Positions 36,508 through 62,126 of a stretch of 64,000 nucleotides of DNA are shown one piece after another; within the stretch, counting starts at the first letter, position 1; the number at the start of each line of letters is the position of its first letter. Location of the stretch: contig CP047152.1 in NCBI GenBank assembly GCA_041879295.1, forward strand, positions 2,051,501-2,115,500, in the 5' to 3' direction. The notes beneath the pieces were generated by a model. The model made no database searches and had not been told where the DNA came from. It saw nothing but the letters and a program-made list of their open reading frames with translations. Made by a program: the position numbers and the translations under genes. The DNA comes from Pseudomonas putida. Lineage in GTDB: Bacteria; Pseudomonadota; Gammaproteobacteria; Pseudomonadales; Pseudomonadaceae.

Positions 36508-38531
36508 GCGGGGTGTCCAGAGGCCGGTCGGCTTCGCCAGTAGTGCCAACCCAGCACTGCCGCACCCAAAACAAAACCGACCTCATCGCTGATGGGCAGG
36601 GCAAGTATCAATGACACGCCAGCAGTGAACGCCAGCAGGCGCTCCCACCAGGGCATGGGGGCACGCAAATGCCCGATCGACGCACATCCCCAAAGGGCAA
36701 CCGCGAACGCCGCCTTGATCACCATGTACAGCGTGCTGCCCATGCCTTCACCTTGCATCATCAACGCCGGGTCATAGACCGCCATGAAGGGCACAACGAA
36801 ACCGGCCAAGGCAATGCGCACCGCCCAGAAACTGATCAACAGGCCTTTTTCCTTGGCAATCGGGGCAGCTGCAAAGCACGCCAATGCCACGGGCGGCGTC
36901 AGGTCGGCCAGGATGCCGAAATAGAACACGAACATGTGCGAGACGATCAGCGGAACCCCGAGCTCCAGCAGGGCCGGGGCGGCAATGGAGCTGGTGATGA
37001 TGTAGTTGGGTATGGTCGGGATGCCCATACCCAGTACCAGGCAGGTGAGCATGGTCAACACCAGCGAGAGGAACAGGTTGTCCCGTCCCAGGTCAAGAAT
37101 GTATCCGGCAAAGGTGGTGGCCAGGCCGGTCAGCGAGATGACGCCGATAATGACGCCGACCAGCGCGCAGGCAATACCCACCGGCACTGCATGACGGGCA
37201 CCCTCCGCGAGGGCCATGACGCATGCGTGCAGGGTGGCGCGACCGCCCTGGACGAAGCAGCACGCAATGGCCAGGCCGGCAATGACCATCAGGATCACCC
37301 CGATCCCCATGCGGAAAAAACCTGAACACAGTATCCCGAGTGCAACCCAGAAAGCCGCGCGTAGCCAGGTTTTTTGAGCGCGCAGGATGATGGCCGAGCC
37401 AAGGATGACGATGGCGGTCAGGGCCAGGCCGACCATTCCCGAGTACAAAGGCGTTCGCCCGGAAAACAACAGCGCGACCAAGACCATCAGGGGTACGAGC
37501 AGGAACCAACGTTGTCGCAACGCATCCCAGGCACTCGGGCACTGTTCGCGAGGCAAGCCATGCAGATGGCTGCGCCGAGCCTCCAGGTGGACCATCCAGT
37601 AGACCGAGCCGAAGTACAGCAACGCTGGGATGAGCGCGGCTTTCGCCACCTCGGCGTAGGGCACGTTGATCGTCTCGGCCATGATGAACGCCACGGCGCC
37701 CATCACTGGCGGCATCAACTGGCTGCCCATGCTGGAGGTCGCCTCTACGCCACCGGCAAATGCAGGTTTGTAGCCGAAGCGCTTCATCAGCGGAATGGTG
37801 AACTGTCCGGTGGTGACGACGTTGGCCACCCCCGAGCCGGTAATGGTACCCATCAGTGCCGAGGAGAACACTGACACTTTGGCCGGCCCCCCGCTGCGAT
37901 GGCCGAACAGCCCCATGGCGAAATCGGTGAACAGACGAATCATGCCCGCCTGCTCAAGAAATGCGCCGAACAGGATGAACAGGTAGATGTAGGTGGCTGA
38001 GACATAGGTCGGTGTGCCATACAGCCCTTCGGTGCCGAATGCCAACTGATTGACGATCTGATCGAGGCCGTAGCCTCGATGCGCGAGTTCGCCTGGCAAG
38101 TATTGGCCAAGCAATCCATAGACCAGAAACAGCGCGCATATGATGGGCAACGCTATGCCCATCACGCGCCGTGCGGCTTCAAAGACCAAACCAATAAGCA
38201 ACAGCCCCACGATCAGGTCGCTGGTGGTCAGCTCGCCGGAGCGTTGAATCAGGTCCCCTTCGAAGTACCACTGGTATGCAGCCGTCGCCATTCCCGCAAG
38301 GCCCAGCAGCCAGGCAAGGGGTTGCCACGGTCGACGGTGGCCAACGAATGAATAGCTCAGGTACACCACCAGCAACAGGAACCCCACGTGTACTGCACGC
38401 AGTACTTGGGTGGAAATCAGGGGAAATGCCGCTGTGGCGATCTGGAAAACCGAAAAGACCAATGCCACGGCAAAAAGCGCCGCAGGCCAGCGATCGGTGC
38501 TGGCGTGAAGACCTTGCGCGGTATCACTCAT
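36504..38531 (-). CDS. TRAP transporter, fused 4TM-12TM permease
   Basis: A 675-aa fused small and large TRAP membrane component. The N-terminal part has about four to six helices; the DctM-like region has VGVIIGVISLTGLATTFAGY and LGMGIPTIPNYIITSSIAAP (in part). Driven by an ion gradient, using the TAXI binding protein encoded just upstream. ATG 38531 follows GGAG at optimal spacing; an ATG at 38543 is less likely. Confidence 0.92.
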   Translation of the reverse strand: MSDTAQGLHASTDRWPAALFAVALVFSVFQIATAAFPLISTQVLRAVHVGFLLLVVYLSYSFVGHRRPWQPLAWLLGLAGMATAAYQWYFEGDLIQRSGELTTSDLIVGLLLIGLVFEAARRVMGIALPIICALFLVYGLLGQYLPGELAHRGYGLDQIVNQLAFGTEGLYGTPTYVSATYIYLFILFGAFLEQAGMIRLFTDFAMGLFGHRSGGPAKVSVFSSALMGTITGSGVANVVTTGQFTIPLMKRFGYKPAFAGGVEATSSMGSQLMPPVMGAVAFIMAETINVPYAEVAKAALIPALLYFGSVYWMVHLEARRSHLHGLPREQCPSAWDALRQRWFLLVPLMVLVALLFSGRTPLYSGMVGLALTAIVILGSAIILRAQKTWLRAAFWVALGILCSGFFRMGIGVILMVIAGLAIACCFVQGGRATLHACVMALAEGARHAVPVGIACALVGVIIGVISLTGLATTFAGYILDLGRDNLFLSLVLTMLTCLVLGMGIPTIPNYIITSSIAAPALLELGVPLIVSHMFVFYFGILADLTPPVALACFAAAPIAKEKGLLISFWAVRIALAGFVVPFMAVYDPALMMQGEGMGSTLYMVIKAAFAVALWGCASIGHLRAPMPWWERLLAFTAGVSLILALPISDEVGFVLGAAVLGWHYWRSRPASGHPA

Positions 38532-55637: not shown

Positions 55638-55652
55638 GTGGAGTTTCTTGCC
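55638..55652 (+). repeat. attL core (native sohB start and 5' region at left)
   Basis: GTGGAGTTTCTTGCC, identical to 62112-62126; the bases either side differ. The native sohB leader, TTTAAGGAGTCAAC, lies directly left. After integration, the GTG begins an 8-codon frame (VEFLANCP, stop 55662-55664) leading into the integrase region, so native sohB transcription would run into int. Confidence 0.85.
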
Positions 55653-55703
55653 AACTGTCCTTGATCTCGGGTAAAGCCAAGCAGCACGGGGCTTCCACCC
55701 AAA

Positions 55704-57155
55704 ATGTCCATCCTTACCGCTGAATCCAGTGTCACAAATCGTCCCAACGTGTCACAAATCGCAGTGCCCTACGTCTACCGTAGAGCCTCTGGGCGCTATC
55801 ACCTTCGAGTTCGCCTCAAGGGCTGCCACACCTCCTGCACGATCTCGCTCAAGACCACCAATCGACCTGCTGCCATGACAACTGCCAAGCACCTGCTTCA
55901 GACCCTCAAAGCGTTCCACCTCGACAACCCAGAGGCATCTTGGGGGGAACTACGGGATAACCTTCGGGACATCGCTGAGGAAGCCTTGGGCAACCCACAA
56001 GGCGAAGCCTATGGGCTGGTCCTGTCTGAGGTCTCCGAGAACCTCGCTCAGATAGCCGAGACGATGCCCATGAGGTTAGCCCAAGCGCAGGCCGTTCTGA
56101 TGGCTCAGAGGGTTCTGGAGGCTGCTCAAGGGCGGCACAGCGGAGACCTGAGAGAGCTGGTCGAGCTGCTCAATGGGGACCTGAAGGGACCTATAGGCAG
56201 TGTTAATCAAGTAGGAGATGTCGATAGTCGTGAGCCTGTGCCTGTCCCTGTCCCTATCTGTAAGTCGCTCTCCACGGACAGCTCTACGACCACATTCCAG
56301 TCCCTCTACGAAGCCTTCAAGGCTGAGCGTGGCGGGGACAAGTCGGCCAATACCTTGAAGAACTGGAAGAGCAGCACCAGCACCATCGTTGCGCACCTCA
56401 GGGACACCGATATGTCCAAGCACACAAGGGCAACCTTTGTGGGCCTTCGTGATGCTCTCTTGGCTGATGGTCGTAAGCCATCCTCTGTTAACAAGGTCAT
56501 GACCCATGCCTCCACTGTCATTGGCTGGGCTGTGGCTACGGGTCTCATTGAGCGTGACTACTCCAAGAAGCTGACTATCACCAAAGGGGCGGATAGCGAC
56601 CGCACAGCCTTCACTGGGGACCACCTAAAGGCTCTCCATGACTGGGCAATGGGCAACCTTGGGAACGACTGGAAAGCATCTGTCATTGCCCTTGGGGTTG
56701 CCACCGGGGCACGCATTGGAGAGATTCACCAGCTCACCGGCAGTGACATCTATGAGGATGGCGGTCACTGGGTCATGGACATCAACGACAAGGACGGGAA
56801 GACCCTCAAGAACTCATTCAGTCGTCGCACAGTGCCACTGCTGGGAATCCCAGAGGACCACCTTGAGAAACTCTCGCAGACCCAAGGGCGGTTGTTCACT
56901 CAGTCCAAGAGTGGCTTCGATCAACTCACCAATCAGATGATCCGAGACCTGCTGGGCACTAAGACCGGGGGAGGGCTGTCGTTCCACTCGTTGAGGCACT
57001 CTATGGCGTCCGATCTGAAGGCCGCTGGCGTGTCTGTGGGGATCGTCCAGGCCATCTTGGGGCACAGCTCTGGGTCACTTGCATTCGATGTCTACGGGGG
57101 CAATGCGGCTGCTTCGAGGGGCCTTATGGTCGAGGCGCTGGGGATGATTCGATAA
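55704..57155 (+). CDS. int: Tyrosine integrase of the element
   Basis: A 483-aa site-specific recombinase: N-terminal arm-binding region, SAM-like core-binding domain (about 195-290) and a C-terminal catalytic domain. Catalytic residues are R337 (GARIGEI), H428 and R431 (HSLRH), H454 (GHSSG) and nucleophile Y464 (VYGG). No clear ribosome-binding site precedes ATG 55704, which lies 39 bases after the stop of the leftover sohB leader frame, so translation may be weak or coupled. Being downstream of the native sohB promoter, it could be transcribed from there. No excisionase is recognised. Confidence 0.95.
   Translation: MSILTAESSVTNRPNVSQIAVPYVYRRASGRYHLRVRLKGCHTSCTISLKTTNRPAAMTTAKHLLQTLKAFHLDNPEASWGELRDNLRDIAEEALGNPQGEAYGLVLSEVSENLAQIAETMPMRLAQAQAVLMAQRVLEAAQGRHSGDLRELVELLNGDLKGPIGSVNQVGDVDSREPVPVPVPICKSLSTDSSTTTFQSLYEAFKAERGGDKSANTLKNWKSSTSTIVAHLRDTDMSKHTRATFVGLRDALLADGRKPSSVNKVMTHASTVIGWAVATGLIERDYSKKLTITKGADSDRTAFTGDHLKALHDWAMGNLGNDWKASVIALGVATGARIGEIHQLTGSDIYEDGGHWVMDINDKDGKTLKNSFSRRTVPLLGIPEDHLEKLSQTQGRLFTQSKSGFDQLTNQMIRDLLGTKTGGGLSFHSLRHSMASDLKAAGVSVGIVQAILGHSSGSLAFDVYGGNAAASRGLMVEALGMIR
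55731..55758 (+). promoter_or_regulatory. Left pair of putative integrase arm-type sites
   Basis: Two copies of TGTCACAAATCG begin at 55731 and 55751, 20 bp apart (two helical turns), inside codons 10-19 of int. A similar pair lies at the right end in the same orientation. Fits arm-type binding sites for the integrase N-terminus. Confidence 0.55.
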
Positions 57156-57396
57156 CGGGGCGCGTCTCAGGGAGCACCACAAAGACCTAAATGCCGGATT
57201 ACAGAGGGCTCCTAAGCGGCTCTCCTTGAAGTGCTTGTGGAGGCGTTCCGTTTAGATATCCGTTAAAATCAAATTGCCATCAAGCCAGACTAATAGGTAA
57301 GCTGCTTGTACAGGGAAGTGAAAGCGCCTCAAAAGGTTTTTCTTAAGATGCTTCGCGCCCATGTTGAAAGAAAACTTAAGAATTGTAGGTCGATCA

Positions 57397-57798
57397 ATGA
57401 ATGCAAGGGAAATAGTTTGTGCGGCAATCCTGGTGCTCCCTGTGGTGGCGTTGGGGGGGCAGGTTGAAGATGAGTTGTATGGGCTAACTAAAAAGACAAG
57501 CTCTAACTTCTGCTTTATCACTATACAGAACGACTCTGCGAAAAGTGATGCATTAAATCATTTGAGGATTAGCCCGTCTTCAGTATGTGAGTGCACGTCA
57601 ATTGAAACAGCTAACGCGATGCAAGCTAATCCGCATTATCATGCCTACCTCAGGAATCTAATTAGAAACGCCAACATTCAGCAAGGTCAGCCACCATCGT
57701 TTGAGTACAGTCCAGATCAAGATGTTGCAGTGGCGGAGTATACCAAGGTGTTTAATAATTCTTGGGTTAATTGTGTGACTCGCTTAAAAAAGAGCTGA
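57397..57798 (+). CDS. AT-rich cargo gene, predicted exported protein of unknown function
   Basis: A 133-aa protein with signal peptide MNAREIVCAAILVLPVVALG, then a mature part with cysteines in NFCFI, SVCECTS and NCVTR that could form disulfides. No family recognised. Base composition is clearly lower in G+C than the rest of the element, and it lies between int and P1, outside the phage-promoter units, so it is probably expressed from a host promoter during lysogeny. ATG 57397 has AGG at proper spacing; ATG 57361 has none. Superinfection exclusion or another surface role is plausible but unproven. Confidence 0.7.
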   Translation: MNAREIVCAAILVLPVVALGGQVEDELYGLTKKTSSNFCFITIQNDSAKSDALNHLRISPSSVCECTSIETANAMQANPHYHAYLRNLIRNANIQQGQPPSFEYSPDQDVAVAEYTKVFNNSWVNCVTRLKKS

Positions 57799-57841
57799 AG
57801 CGCAAGGCTTGAGCTTAAAGCTGTTTCGTAAGTAGGTGTCG

Positions 57842-57864
57842 TAAAAACCCTCACTATGGCTGCA
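57842..57864 (+). promoter_or_regulatory. T7-like phage RNA polymerase promoter P1 (gh-1 type)
   Basis: TAAAAACCCTCACTATGGCT plus GCA, 23 bp. It fits every position of the consensus I recall for P. putida phage gh-1 (TAAAAACCCTCACTRTGGC followed by H-S-C-M). Aligned to T7/T3 promoters, transcription would start at G57859. It is placed 37 bp upstream of the gene at 57896. Confidence 0.88.
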
Positions 57865-57895
57865 CGTTCGCAGCGGCCATATGAGGACCACTATC

Positions 57896-58531
57896 ATGAC
57901 CCTGCTCACCCAACCCGGACCATTACACCGCCACGTCGATCACGAAACCGGCACCATCCTTCACATTGACCCAATCACTGGCGAGGTCATCCGCCGCAAG
58001 GACATGGTACGACCCGCAAACCTCGAAGCCCAGTATCAGGCATGGGCCGCTGAGCGTCGTGCCGATGAGTCCCTCTCTGAGGACCAACAGAAAGCCGCCA
58101 AGGGCCTGACCAACGGCACCCAAGGGCAACCCCAAGAGACCCCAAGCGATGAACCCAAGCGAGGCCGTGGACGCCCAAAGGCCACCTTCGCTAACCCTGT
58201 CGCAGCCTACATGCACCTCCTTGCGATTCCCGATCCGCTGCCATGGGTAGACGACATCATTACCGGGTCAATCATCACCAGTGCCGGAGTCACCAACGGA
58301 AAGATCAACGTCAAGGCACGAGCGGTCATCGGTGCGTTGTTCCTTTCGGAGATCACAGCGGACGCCTGTAAGACCAATGAGTATTCCTTGAGGACCGCCC
58401 AGCGAATCGCCAAGGCTGCTCGACACGCTGCCCATGGGATCGCTTCGTATGTCGAGAGACACCCAGACATCAAGGCTGAGATTGTGGCTGAGGTAGGCGC
58501 AGAGGCTCTATTCCGGGGCTTAGCGACTTAA
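57896..58531 (+). CDS. Unknown protein with AT-hook-like motif, first gene after P1
   Basis: A 211-aa protein. The N-terminal half is polar (LHRHVDHETGTILHIDPITG), with an AT-hook-like PKRGRGRPKA near residues 87-96, and the C-terminal half is helical (TAQRIAKAARHAAHGIASYV). No family recognised. DNA binding is suggested by the hook. ATG 57896 has GAGGA 9 bases upstream and is preferred over ATG 57881. As the first gene on the helper-driven transcript it is a candidate takeover or packaging factor. Confidence 0.75.
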   Translation: MTLLTQPGPLHRHVDHETGTILHIDPITGEVIRRKDMVRPANLEAQYQAWAAERRADESLSEDQQKAAKGLTNGTQGQPQETPSDEPKRGRGRPKATFANPVAAYMHLLAIPDPLPWVDDIITGSIITSAGVTNGKINVKARAVIGALFLSEITADACKTNEYSLRTAQRIAKAARHAAHGIASYVERHPDIKAEIVAEVGAEALFRGLAT

Positions 58532-58672
58532 CGCCGGATAATATAAAGAAAATCTCAACGACCATCTTCAGGTCAAAGCATCGACCAGACCCAGAGGGAG
58601 AGGGGTTGTTAATTACAACTCCCCTCATCTCAAAGGGCATCTTTAAGAACACCTCAAAGGAGACCTTCCAAC

Positions 58673-59002
58673 ATGACCAGCATTGTCTGCCCAGCTAACT
58701 CACGCCTCACCGAACAAGATATGTCAGTCTTGTCTACTGTATTCCCTCGACCAGCTCGAACCCAGCTCATCGAGTTGCGTCGTGCCCTTAGTGACCATCG
58801 CTCCAACTTCAGGACCTACAAGGCTGGACAGGTCACCTTCGATATGGACGGTGTGGCCCAACGGGTCCTCGCTAAGTGCCCCCAAAAGACTCTCGACCGT
58901 TTGAATCAACTACTTGAACAAGGGTTGTGTCTTCAAGCCATCGCCTCGACTCACTTGAGGATTCCATTGAGTGGCTCTGAGGGAATCTCACTCACAACTT
59001 AA
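58673..59002 (+). CDS. Unknown 109-aa protein of the element
   Basis: MTSIVCPANSRLTEQDMSVL... mainly helical, with basic patches (IELRRALSDHRSNFRTYKAG). No family recognised. AAAGGAGA lies 9 bases before the ATG. An imperfect hairpin around GGGGTTGTTAATTACAAC (58603-58620) precedes it. Probably the second gene of the P1 transcript. Confidence 0.7.
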   Translation: MTSIVCPANSRLTEQDMSVLSTVFPRPARTQLIELRRALSDHRSNFRTYKAGQVTFDMDGVAQRVLAKCPQKTLDRLNQLLEQGLCLQAIASTHLRIPLSGSEGISLTT

Positions 59003-59024
59003 AGATGTCCGTCAAGACTGTCGT

Positions 59025-59047
59025 TAAAAACCCTCACTATGGGTAAG
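59025..59047 (+). promoter_or_regulatory. T7-like phage RNA polymerase promoter P2 (gh-1 type)
   Basis: TAAAAACCCTCACTATGG, then GTAAG: identical to P1 from -17 to +1 (18 bases) and diverging in the initially transcribed region. Predicted start at G59042. It would drive the coiled-coil and capsid-like genes and everything downstream. Confidence 0.85.
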
Positions 59048-59296
59048 ACAGGAAGACCAACAACAAAATAATTTCTCTCTGCCATTGCTGCACAGCCGTT
59101 GCCACGGTTGAACCCTTCGCAATACCGATGCCCTTCAGGCCCGCCATGTCCTGATCCGTCATCAACACCACTCAAATCAAGAACTCATTCGTCAGCCTTG
59201 GAAGGTGCCCACGCGGCTCACTCCTTGCCGTCTTGTCGTGCGCGTCTATGGCACCAAGGCTGAGCGAATGGGTCACCTCACAGGAGAACCCAAACC
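59048..59296 (+). other. Untranslated leader between P2 and the coiled-coil gene
   Basis: About 250 bases with no plus-strand gene. A 41-codon minus-strand frame (59037-59162; MTDQDMAGLKGIGIAKGSTV...) has protein-like composition, but lacks support. The leader could hold a regulatory or packaging signal; nothing certain is seen. Confidence 0.4.
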
Positions 59297-59698
59297 ATGA
59301 AAATCACTATCACGAAAGTCCTGAAGAACGAAGTCACCGTGTCGGGCCAGACCCTGAACCGTGAGTACGTCGAGAACATCATGCTGCCCATGCTGGTCGC
59401 CCAATGCGGGACCGTTAAGGGCCAGCAATTCGAGATCGTTAAGGCGTTCGATGAGGCCGGTCTGTCGCTCCAAGCGATTCCTGTAGTTGCCCGAGAGTAC
59501 CGCCAGCATCAGTACGAGGACGCCCAAGAGAAGGCCCGTAAACAGGCTGAGGCCAATGCCCATGCTGAGCGGTGCCGTGAGCATACGCCCCGAGAGATCG
59601 CCCAAGCGAAGGCTGATCGGGAAGCCCGAAACGCTGCCATTCGTGAGCATGGTCAGAAAATTCTGGCTGCTCGTCGTAGCAATAGCGGTGGCTGGTAA
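59297..59698 (+). CDS. Coiled-coil protein, candidate scaffolding protein
   Basis: A 133-aa protein: a short globular N-terminus (MKITITKVLKNEVTVSGQTL) followed, from about residue 65, by a long charged helix (REYRQHQYEDAQEKARKQAE) and a basic tail AARRSNSGGW. CAGGAG precedes the ATG. It lies 55 bp before the capsid-like gene; a small helical protein directly upstream of a capsid gene is the usual place for a scaffold. No sequence family recognised, so the role is inference. Confidence 0.6.
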   Translation: MKITITKVLKNEVTVSGQTLNREYVENIMLPMLVAQCGTVKGQQFEIVKAFDEAGLSLQAIPVVAREYRQHQYEDAQEKARKQAEANAHAERCREHTPREIAQAKADREARNAAIREHGQKILAARRSNSGGW

Positions 59699-59753
59699 CA
59701 GCACTTCCCTCGACACACAACCACTTCATTCATCTATTCAGGAGACAACAACC

Positions 59754-60755
59754 ATGACTAAGCCATTCCAGTACACCAAACCCTCGACCTACTCCACTGC
59801 CATTGTCGATGAGCACACAGGGTCGATTCGATTCAACACTGCCGATGTCCGTCCAGAGACCCAAGCGGCCACCGATGTGTCCGTCTATGTGGAAGCCCTT
59901 GTGGAAGCCGCTGAGGACTATTTGAACGGCGATGAGTGGCGAGAGGCTGCCATGGAGGCAACCCCTTGCGAGTTCCGTCCGGCTGGCTCTGAGGCCACTG
60001 GGCAACAAATCATCACCATGGCCGACCGCTCTGTCACCTTCGACCCTCGTAAGAACTGGGATAACCAGACCGTCGAGAAGGGCGAGGTCCTGGCCGGTTC
60101 TGTGATCTTCACCGAGGCGACCGACAAGGCATTGGTCATCAGCCACCGAGCTACGATCTTTGACCACAACCTGATGGCAGGCTTCACCGTCCAGTCTATG
60201 GAGCAAACCGCTGACAAGATGCTTCGTGACATTGAGCACAGCGCAGCCGGTAAGGTCGCTGCCATCTTGGCGACTGCCCCAAGCACTGAGAGCGTCTCTG
60301 AGGCCAAACCAACGGGTAAGCCTGCTGAGATCGCTGAGGACCTCATCGACATCCTCACGACCCACGTTAACCAGACTGTAGGGACCTCGCTGAGCGACTT
60401 CGTGATCCTGCTGCCCGTGTCACTGGTGGCTGTTCTTGAGCGTGCTGCTCAACGTGCTGGTCAGGACTCTATCGAGGACCTCATTGGCGCAGGCGTACAG
60501 CCGTATACAGGCACTGACCACGGCGTCTTCATGTTGCCCAAGCTTTTCACCTCGCTGAGCTACCGTGAGCGCCAAGACGGTAGCATCTGGAAGATTGAAG
60601 CGACTCGCAACCCAAACGCCCAAGGCTGGGACCTTGAGATCGTGGCTGTGGTGGACATCATCGCCAATGGCATGGTCAAGGTAGCTCTGACCGAGGATCG
60701 TCTTCAGACCGTTCAAGTGCCGTTCCCGCTGGTCACTCGCATTGCCCTGAGCTGA
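59754..60755 (+). CDS. Capsid-like protein, candidate major capsid protein of the satellite
   Basis: A 333-aa protein from ATG 59754 (CAGGAG upstream; the in-frame extension from 59487 overlaps the coiled-coil gene). Layout resembles an HK97-fold coat: extended N-arm (1-40), acidic helix (42-68), strand-rich segment (72-135), long helix (146-174), helix (192-209), an A-domain-like segment (215-270, FVILLPVSLVAVLERAAQRA) and C-terminal strands (IVAVVDIIANGMVKVAL). There is no portal, protease or terminase beside it. I cannot confirm the fold without a structure prediction; an encapsulin-like or decoy role is possible. Confidence 0.6.
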   Translation: MTKPFQYTKPSTYSTAIVDEHTGSIRFNTADVRPETQAATDVSVYVEALVEAAEDYLNGDEWREAAMEATPCEFRPAGSEATGQQIITMADRSVTFDPRKNWDNQTVEKGEVLAGSVIFTEATDKALVISHRATIFDHNLMAGFTVQSMEQTADKMLRDIEHSAAGKVAAILATAPSTESVSEAKPTGKPAEIAEDLIDILTTHVNQTVGTSLSDFVILLPVSLVAVLERAAQRAGQDSIEDLIGAGVQPYTGTDHGVFMLPKLFTSLSYRERQDGSIWKIEATRNPNAQGWDLEIVAVVDIIANGMVKVALTEDRLQTVQVPFPLVTRIALS

Positions 60756-60788
60756 TCTAAGGGAAACCCTGAGCTGATCTAAGGGAAA
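60745..60788 (+). repeat. Exact 22-bp tandem duplication over the capsid-gene stop
   Basis: CCCTGAGCTGATCTAAGGGA plus AA, twice in tandem (60745-60766 and 60767-60788), with a third partial start CCCTGAT. The stop codon of the capsid-like gene lies in the first copy. Each copy can fold as CCCT...AGGG. Confidence 0.9.
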
Positions 60789-60796
60789 CCCTGATA

Positions 60797-60835
60797 GCCC
60801 CGTAAGGCCGGACCTAAAGAGGGACCGGCAGGGGC
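60797..60835 (+). terminator. Hairpin after the capsid-like gene
   Basis: Nested arms GCCCC/GGGGC (60797-60801, 60831-60835) and GCCGG/CCGGC (60807-60811, 60825-60829). There is no T-run, so it may be a processing or phage-polymerase pause site rather than a classic terminator. Confidence 0.5.
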
Positions 60836-60912
60836 ACAGCTTCACCTATCCGCATCATCGCCCGTCGCTGGGCATCTATCTAACCGAAAGTCTTTCTGTT
60901 TGTTCCTTCATG

Positions 60913-60954
60913 CCACCGGCAGAAACCTTGGTCGGGTCTTTCGGCTGCCGGTGG
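60913..60954. repeat. Perfect 10-bp inverted repeat before the Rha-like gene
   Basis: CCACCGGCAG (60913-60922) and CTGCCGGTGG (60945-60954) flank a 22-base loop, 39 bp upstream of ATG 60993. Could be an operator, a leader hairpin or a packaging site. Confidence 0.65.
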
Positions 60955-60992
60955 GAGCGAACTTGAGGGAGCAAACAAGAGGAAAACAGACT

Positions 60993-61466
60993 ATGACCAT
61001 GACCACCAATACAGCGACCATCTTCGAGAACATCTCCAAGGCCGGAGCGGTATCCTCAACGACTCTCAACGGCTTACCCGGTATGTCGTCCTTGGAGATC
61101 GCTGAGATCACCGGTAAGCGCCATGACCATGTACTCAGAGACATCCGAAAGATGCTCAACGAGCTGGAAAGGGAGACCCCAAATCTGGGGGCACCTCAAT
61201 GGGTCGAGGCCAGCTACCAGTCCAGTCAAAGCAAGTTATTACCGCTGACCATTCTCGACAAAGAGCTGACCTTTACGCTGCTCTCCCGGTATTCCTTCAA
61301 GCTGTCCAACATGATCGTCAAGCGCTGGCTTGAACTGGAAGGCTCAGGGTTTGAACGTGTGTCGATACAGGCTGCTGTGGTTCACCTGCTCGAACGAGAG
61401 AAGGACAACTATCGAATCGCAATGAGGGACATCAAGGCCGCTGCAAGGCGTCTCAAGGCCCGCTGA
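60993..61466 (+). CDS. Rha-family phage regulatory protein
   Basis: A 157-aa protein with the phage Rha DNA-binding signature: MSSLEIAEITGKRHDHVLRD, then IRKMLNEL and YKLSNMIVKRW-like helices (YSFKLSNMIVKRWLELE). Rha proteins of lambdoid phages affect growth in IHF-deficient hosts and may regulate transcription. AAGAGGAAAA precedes ATG 60993; the frame open from 60900 runs through the inverted repeat. Confidence 0.82.
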   Translation: MTMTTNTATIFENISKAGAVSSTTLNGLPGMSSLEIAEITGKRHDHVLRDIRKMLNELERETPNLGAPQWVEASYQSSQSKLLPLTILDKELTFTLLSRYSFKLSNMIVKRWLELEGSGFERVSIQAAVVHLLEREKDNYRIAMRDIKAAARRLKAR

Positions 61467-61545
61467 GGTCGTTGATTGATACTTCCTCAAACGAAGCGTG
61501 ACGGGCTATGCTCAATAGCTAAGTTGCCCACAAAAAGGTCCCGCG

Positions 61546-61764
61546 ATGAGTGTCACACTGTGCTACACCTACAAGGGCAAACGGGTAGTCACTAAGGTGC
61601 CTGTCGAGTCTCTGACACCACATGCGGCGCTATGCTATGCCTTGCTTCAATCAGGCGCTTCTAATGACCAATCTCAAGGGAGGTGGCCGCATACCTATGA
61701 GCGCCTCCTTGAGGTAGCCCTGCAACACGAACTCACAGACGTTCGCTTTCACAAGTCACTCTAA
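61546..61764 (+). CDS. Unknown 72-aa protein of the element
   Basis: MSVTLCYTYKGKRVVTKVPV... a compact, mostly hydrophilic protein with no recognised family. AAAGG is about 8 bases before the ATG. Its position and strand fit the P2 transcript. Confidence 0.65.
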   Translation: MSVTLCYTYKGKRVVTKVPVESLTPHAALCYALLQSGASNDQSQGRWPHTYERLLEVALQHELTDVRFHKSL

Positions 61765-61782
61765 CCCTTCAAGGAGAACCCC

Positions 61783-61863
61783 ATGGACCACCTACAGGCC
61801 CTCTACTGGGTCTGTCTGGCCGTTCAACTGGGGTTCTGGTTGTGGTCGCATAGGCCCCCTTGA
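61783..61863 (+). CDS. 26-residue single-span membrane peptide of the element
   Basis: MDHLQALYWVCLAVQLGFWL and six more residues (WSHRPP). It has one hydrophobic, tryptophan-rich helix, and an excellent ribosome-binding site (AAGGAGA, 6 bases from ATG), which argues that it is translated. Too short for usual gene finders. It could be a minimal lysis or inhibition peptide, but nothing identifies it. Confidence 0.6.
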   Translation: MDHLQALYWVCLAVQLGFWLWSHRPP

Positions 61864-62111
61864 GAATCCGACAGAAAAATCTGAAAGGTCACCTATTCAA
61901 TCATTCCCGCGCAGGTTCCCCCGTAGGCCCTCGCATGGGTGCCCGTAGGCGCGATAGGGACCCCTCACGGGCAGGTGATAAGGACCCAGAAGAAAGCCCG
62001 AAAGGTGCGCCGCTGAGCCTGCCTCAAGTGCTTCGGAATGTCACAAGACCGTACCAAAGTGTCACAAGCCATGGTAGCGTAGCCCTTTAATTCCGGGCAT
62101 TGAGGACTACT
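61864..62111 (+). other. Right-end non-coding segment with arm-type sites and substitute sohB leader
   Basis: TGTCACAAG occurs at 62039 and 62060 (21 bp apart), mirroring the left pair. CCCGTAGGC occurs twice near 61919 and 61949. TTGAGGACTACT immediately before GTG 62112 gives sohB a new ribosome-binding site, and ATGGTAGCGTAGCCC upstream may hold a promoter. A 76-codon open frame here lacks a good start and is not accepted. Confidence 0.6.
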
Positions 62112-62126
62112 GTGGAGTTTCTTGCC
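62112..62126 (+). repeat. attR core (codons 1-5 of sohB)
   Basis: GTGGAGTTTCTTGCC, the right copy of the 15-bp core. Crossing over here keeps the whole SohB protein unchanged. Confidence 0.85.

Follow-up and report, generated by a model that had tools for sequence, protein, structure and literature searches.

We analyzed a 64,000-nucleotide window of the Pseudomonas putida genome (assembly GCA_041879295.1, contig CP047152.1, positions 2,051,501 to 2,115,500) and found that the element at positions 55638..62126 of this window is most probably a sohB-integrated satellite of T7-like (Studiervirinae) phages, with the cycle proposed below. With its relatives in other Pseudomonas genomes it very likely represents a satellite family of such phages. 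On balance, we favor a more specific picture, in which this new family is doubly locked to T7-like phages. Its genes would answer only to the helper RNA polymerase, and its packaging signal would be stored in two halves. Excision would itself clear the element for packaging, with the helper terminase filling small capsids that the satellite makes, and lineages would have changed helpers by exchanging promoters and packaging ends jointly.

The element is bounded by two exact 15-bp direct repeats, with a repeat-to-repeat unit of 6,474 bp. The core of the left attachment site attL, GTGGAGTTTCTTGCC (55638..55652; all features described here are on the + strand), corresponds to the start site of sohB in empty genomes, and that of attR (62112..62126) is the 5' end of sohB, which continues from there. 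In the related genomes G024, G015, and G007 the sohB site is uninterrupted, that is, empty. Like satellites in general, the element is integrated, has its own integrase and attachment (att) sites, and does not contain the complete gene set needed for virions and packaging. The preliminary description, made from the sequence alone, of a 6.5-kb element with an integrase, one capsid-like gene, and two promoters of the phage gh-1 type was confirmed by family scans, the repeats, and the promoter search. It had also listed portal, terminase, tail, and polymerase genes as absent, and family scans of the element proteins recognized none of these at E ≤0.001; the Rha-family regulator had a weak small-terminase match (0.004). 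The gh-1 polymerase protein has no match in the window's own genome, so a helper would come from outside; we used this protein since a PF00940 search of the same genome was uninformative, its controls giving no match either.

Promoters of the phage type

The element contains two exact AAAAACCCTCACTATGG sites, P1 (57841..57864), located 5' of orfA, and P2 (59024..59047), 5' of the block from orfC to the capsid gene. The window contains no further site, even when three mismatches are allowed (chance expectation 0.09). When scored with a matrix built from 12 gh-1 sites gathered by motif, two weak ones included, the two sites yielded 33.9 and 29.5 bits, compared with 10.4 bits for the next best. 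A search with 41 bases spanning the second promoter in the relatives L003/L004 matched 624 places in 70 phage records, with 63 Pseudomonas phages among them. The matches listed for this query were mostly at 9–10 places per record, and the matched places are annotated as promoters in gh-1 and some other phages. The P2 counterpart in L003/L004 has as its best match the right-end promoter of gh-1-like phages.

Edges of the terminal repeat

The right end of the element (61856..61935) is the counterpart of the helper sequence straddling the start of the terminal repeat (gh-1 37109–37194; 77% over 87 columns, E-value 4e-9), and could be a terminase cut site. The annotated terminal repeat of gh-1 starts at 37143, inside the matched stretch. 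Searched against 50,697 phage records, the right end matched 169, the best 40 of which were mainly gh-1-like, with E-values down to 7e-8; in these 40, the matches fall at the edge of the terminal repeat wherever a repeat is annotated.

The other edge lies inside the integrase gene, where CTGTCCCTATCTGTAAGTC (56248..56266) is the counterpart of the terminal-repeat end, identical to gh-1 212–230 in 19 of 19 bases. Among all phages, this signal matched mostly repeat ends of gh-1-like kinds (best 30 of 91 records), although with weak E-values of at least 0.01. Both packaging-edge motifs are absent from the first 55 kb of the window. The repeat-end motif CCCTATCTGTA is present within the integrase gene in 26 of the 27 elements at up to two mismatches, 19 of the scored copies being exact; in L055 the scored copy has two mismatches but is directly followed by an exact one. 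Mean column identity is 0.96 in the signal as opposed to 0.57 in its flanks. The window's element, L008, and L049 share one reading frame across the motif, and most other elements use a different one, which suggests conservation at the DNA or RNA level and not of the protein.

The two edges lie near the opposite ends of the integrated element, and by calculation they would be 835 bp apart on an excised circle. T7-like terminases cut at fixed sites, and the T7 concatemer junction has a role in packaging. With this arrangement, a unit cut in the manner of the T7 genome would be about 7.3 kb long.

Related elements

The homologue search in Pseudomonas genomes that the preliminary description had proposed revealed a family: the capsid profile matches 31 of the 398 sampled genomes of the genus, a few of the matches being fragments, and in 369 genomes of the class, representing 272 genera, it matches the window's own genome alone. 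A plasmid collection held no near copy of the element. The order integrase, cargo, promoter, orfA/orfB, promoter, orfC, capsid, Rha, and small open reading frame (ORF) recurs with variations, at several integration sites. Judged by the longest direct repeat, element length is 6,366–6,688 bp in 25 of 29 rows, one of the 25 (L050) being the same locus as L006. The other rows are L048 (7.2 or 7.8 kb, with a split integrase), L068 (two 11-base repeats, giving 6,244 or 6,443), L069 (no repeat), and L070 (5.1 kb). Capsid identity between elements ranges from 41 to 100%, with order, length, and att structure recurring throughout.

Ten gh-1 genes had no match in the 41 loci. We also scanned 57 flanking ORFs from eight loci (51 of 63 flanking ORFs, and six from the window); the families listed (best 25 of 34 and 25 of 50) were ordinary chromosomal ones, for example OmpA, MucB, a sigma factor family, and SohB. 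The head maturation protease family phrog_53 matches two flanking members; the S49 peptidase Pfam, to which SohB belongs, also has two, and we take the phrog_53 matches to be SohB.

One 6,428-bp element (L064) has its ends joined to two different chromosomal contexts within genome G030 (contigs 11, 18, 29, 35, and 53). In metagenomes, 18 of the 178 listed protein clusters have a longest contig of 6.2–6.75 kb, compared with 3.9 expected from neighboring sizes; the excess could reflect free or circular copies, or else assembly breaks. Separately, a capsid fragment 100% identical to that of the window was seen in L009 (7167–7421), on a 7.4-kb contig that bears the label of a Micrococcales metagenome bin, perhaps through misbinning.

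Helper classes among the relatives

To compare the elements with possible helpers, we scored four promoter classes, taken from four Ghunavirus-type phages, 3MF5, two Pijolavirus-type phages, and UNO-SLW4; two of the classes thus rest on a single phage each, and most elements fall into one class. Seven loci (L002, L009, L010, L011, L050, L057, and L059), being duplicates or fragments, were left out of the promoter and integrase-signal scoring. Of the 34 elements scored for promoters, 25 reached 20 bits at one site or more. Where an element has two or more such sites (n = 15), all of them are of one class in 14 cases, L060 differing by 0.7 bits. Most elements have Ghunavirus-type promoters. Some diverged relatives have promoters of other T7-like genera: Pijolavirus-type ones are seen in L055, L056, L066, and L067, Warsawvirus-like ones in L058 and others, and Pifdecavirus-like ones in L063 and L065. 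The last promoter of L056, GTAAAAACCCTCACTAAGGCCCCGGGA, closely resembles the one at the right end of PspYZU08 (39291), and that of L058, CCAAAAACCCTCACTATAAGGGG, the one at the right end of 3MF5 (39106).

The packaging ends vary as well. That of L058 has the 3MF5 terminal repeat as its best match, and L058 and L059 carry a more diverged form of the packaging-start motif; the packaging end of L055 has only weak phage matches, several of them near genome ends. In elements with a promoter score of at least 20 and a packaging score of at least 45 (L063 being omitted, as no packaging end was found for its phage class), the promoter class equals the best packaging-end class in 16 of 19 (permutation test, 0.0026, ignoring kinship of the elements). 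Without a near-copy, the classes agree in 15 of 18 (0.0086).

Integrases of T7-like phages

Related integrases (E ≤1e-20) were found in five phage records representing four phages, all of them Pseudomonas phages of 40–42 kb; the three integrase-bearing phages whose taxonomy was read belong to Studiervirinae. The integrase family occurs in the temperate-looking T7-like phages 3MF5, G11, and phTUNSm. In vB_PaeM-G11 (L158), the integrase is at the left end (72–1532) and the repeat-start motif at the right end (40547), a layout resembling the ends of the satellite. A copy of the repeat-end motif with one mismatch lies near the start of this integrase gene, in the N-terminal stretch reading PYLYRR, and could be due to chance. 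To judge by these sequences, the ends of the satellite may have been taken from an integrase-bearing T7-like phage.

The idea that the signal is absent from the integrases of T7-like prophages was borne out only in part. At up to one mismatch, neither L144 nor L147 showed it in the integrase, but copies exist in G11, L148 (a two-mismatch signal inside int, with a polymerase nearby), and L149 (a near copy inside int, with part of a terminase nearby). In all four loci L144, L147, L148, and L149, T7-like genes (polymerase or terminase) lie beside an integrase of the family, and some of these loci may be whole T7-like prophages.

Further loci have an integrase of this family. In L132 (G055, contig 24), an integrase with the repeat-end motif lies beside a gene 59% identical to the gh-1 single-stranded DNA-binding protein; G055 is not among the capsid carriers. 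L145 (G017) and L146 (G118) are apparent remnants (a shortened integrase with a nearby packaging-start motif; an integrase and an orfA relative without a capsid).

Capsid-like protein and other genes

The 333-aa capsid-like protein (59754..60755) had no identifying match in Pfam, PHROGs, NCBIfam, or a PDB profile search, and its profile has no detectable similarity to five T7-type capsids. Structure prediction gave an HK97 fold, with a predicted local distance difference test score (pLDDT) of 78.8 once distant relatives had been added to the input; a first model from close relatives, with pLDDT of 44.7, was not used. Some homologues carry a C-terminal Big_2 domain. The satellite likely forms a small capsid of its own.

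The remaining genes are the tyrosine integrase (483 aa, 55704..57155), 39% identical to that of the T7-like Warsawvirus 3MF5; a 145-aa cargo gene (57361..57798) and orfA (216 aa, 57881..58531), both without a family match; orfB (109 aa, 58673..59002), without a significant one; orfC (133 aa, DUF6971, 59297..59698); the Rha-family regulator (157 aa, 60993..61466); and small ORFs including orfD (72 aa, 61546..61764), which is retained in some relatives. The gene orfC is located 5' of the capsid gene in most relatives, a scaffold-like position, and may have a scaffold role. Two direct TGTCACAA repeats near attL (55730..55762) and two more near attR (62038..62070) are candidate arm sites of the integrase.

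The slot after int varies between relatives. We scanned 52 of 58 candidate cargo-region ORFs and found TIR-TM (L006 and L048), PD-T7-4, HNH, Bro-N, and unknown genes; PD-T7-4 matches two of the 52, one of which was identified as L008. The cargo of the relatives includes candidate anti-phage genes.

Proposed cycle and alternatives

From the integration, the promoter matches, both packaging-edge matches, the predicted capsid fold, and the family conservation, which the sequence establishes, we infer how induction, excision on infection, replication, packaging, and transfer might proceed. The element would stay quiet in the chromosome, with the host expressing the integrase and the cargo, which would guard the host against some phages. 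When a gh-1-like phage infects, its RNA polymerase would read from P1 and P2 and switch on orfA, orfB, orfC, the capsid gene, and Rha. The integrase would excise the element, bringing the two halves of the terminal-repeat signal to a distance of about 835 bp. Helper enzymes would then replicate the element, perhaps with priming from P2, and the helper terminase would cut at the edges and fill small shells of the satellite capsid protein, equipped with the helper portal and tail.

The preliminary description had also read the element as a satellite switched on by the RNA polymerase of a T7-like phage, and had named as contrary to this promoter matches not used by any T7-like polymerase, a capsid-like protein of a non-virion family, and relatives always residing inside complete prophages. 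None of the three was encountered: the promoter sites look like those of T7-like phages, the capsid-like protein has a predicted HK97 fold, shared by encapsulins, and the relatives are stand-alone loci, with no match to ten gh-1 genes in 41 loci and with chromosomal families listed for the flanks of eight. The reading is supported further by the packaging-edge matches and by the promoter classes of the relatives.

Several observations weigh against the satellite reading. Nine of the 34 elements, some but not all of them truncated, have no 20-bit promoter, and the promoter and packaging classes disagree in three of 19 (L045, L056, and L064). Of the 41 loci, a count that takes in duplicates and fragments, 27 contain the packaging-start motif at the threshold of eight mismatches in 30. 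The template modeling (TM) scores of the capsid-like model are low, its predicted fold is also common to encapsulins, which are not virion proteins, and tblastn found no homologue of the protein in the 50,697 phage records. No excisionase or replication gene was recognized in the element. In the three IMG/VR loci the element adjoins sohB, and thus appears integrated rather than free. Finally, the genomes G017, G118, G051, and G055 have an integrase with the signal but no capsid match.

Among other explanations, the one that survives best, possible though rather unlikely in our view, is a satellite packaged as concatemers in full-size helper heads, its capsid-like protein acting in co-assembly or in inhibition of helper heads. 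PICMI115, which is of similar size (6,110 bp), is packaged in this manner by the account given in the source (PMC10803314), and here no portal of the satellite was recognized and its scaffold is putative. Against this, the fixed cutting by T7-like terminases leads one to expect the unit genome of about 7.3 kb, and the whole capsid gene is retained across diverged members, even though the family is defined by that gene. We consider it improbable that the element is instead an anti-phage island triggered by T7-like phages, in which the capsid-like and other proteins poison helper assembly, the edges are terminase decoys, and transfer is incidental. The candidate defense genes in the cargo slot of relatives and the phage-polymerase-type promoters would fit such an island, but the conserved integrase, the att sites, the two contexts in G030, and the split packaging signal suit a mobile element better; the island and satellite ideas are compatible, and both can be true. 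Least probable is a decayed temperate T7-like prophage retaining its integrase, genome ends, and a few promoters, since, despite the integrases of 3MF5, G11, and phTUNSm and a near signal copy in G11, by which the ends may descend from such a phage, the capsid has no detectable profile similarity to five T7-type capsids, no gh-1 gene is found in the 41 loci, and decay would not yield order, length, and att structure recurring at 41–100% capsid identity or promoters and packaging ends that track different phages.

T7 is the model virulent phage. If the satellite reading is true, it shows how a satellite can exploit a phage equipped with its own polymerase, namely by having the promoters which that polymerase reads. 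The differing promoters and packaging ends would then preserve the history of helper switching, and sequence alone would predict which helper each element uses. It would also suggest a route by which virulent phages could carry anti-phage genes between bacteria.

Comparison with known systems

Searches of open-access PMC papers listed no recognizable satellite of T7-like phages, as judged by titles and the starts of abstracts. The phages 3MF5 and vB_PaeM-G11 share with the element a related integrase and similar terminal-repeat edges, and G11 also the near copy of the signal in int. However, they are full 40–42-kb phages with a polymerase, portal, tail, terminase, and T7-type capsid, whereas the traits of a T7-like prophage (genes for a single-subunit RNA polymerase, portal, tail, and terminase) are not seen in the element.

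P4-like satellites and PLE redirect or remodel helper capsids, and P4-like satellites have a P4-type replication gene and capsid size control. The element, known here from its sequence, would be similar to both as an integrated satellite dependent on helper particles, but has a separate capsid-like gene. Families for these P4-type functions had no match among the element proteins, and orfA and orfB are without family. P4-like satellites are described as 10 kb and PLE as 18 kb on average, the latter being found only in Vibrio cholerae (PMC10803314). A 6.5-kb element in Pseudomonas falls outside the definition of PLE.

cf-PICIs carry their own terminase and head-morphogenesis genes. Their trait of an own capsid gene is seen here as far as the predicted fold goes, while terminase and head-morphogenesis genes had no significant match. 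The cf-PICIs are reported to be 14 kb on average and to use temperate helpers (PMC10803314), unlike this 6.5-kb element with T7-like promoters and no recognized terminase or portal. The Streptomyces satellites of the Mulch and Flayer systems are similar in encoding encapsidation machinery while lacking key replication genes; they differ in their hosts, and T7-type promoters and split packaging edges are unmentioned in the available text of the source (PMC10690885).

PICMI, Vibrio satellites of virulent phages located next to fis and carrying int, alpA, and a primase gene, resemble the element, as far as the available text goes, in their size of about 6 kb, single integrase, virulent helper, minimal gene set, and defense cargo (PMC10803314). 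PICMI have the fis site, alpA, and primase and, in the same account, no capsid-remodeling gene (PMC10803314), while the elements described here occupy sohB or other sites, and the AlpA and primase families had no match among the element proteins. Unlike PICMI as described there, the element has promoters of the helper-polymerase type, split packaging edges, and a capsid-like gene.

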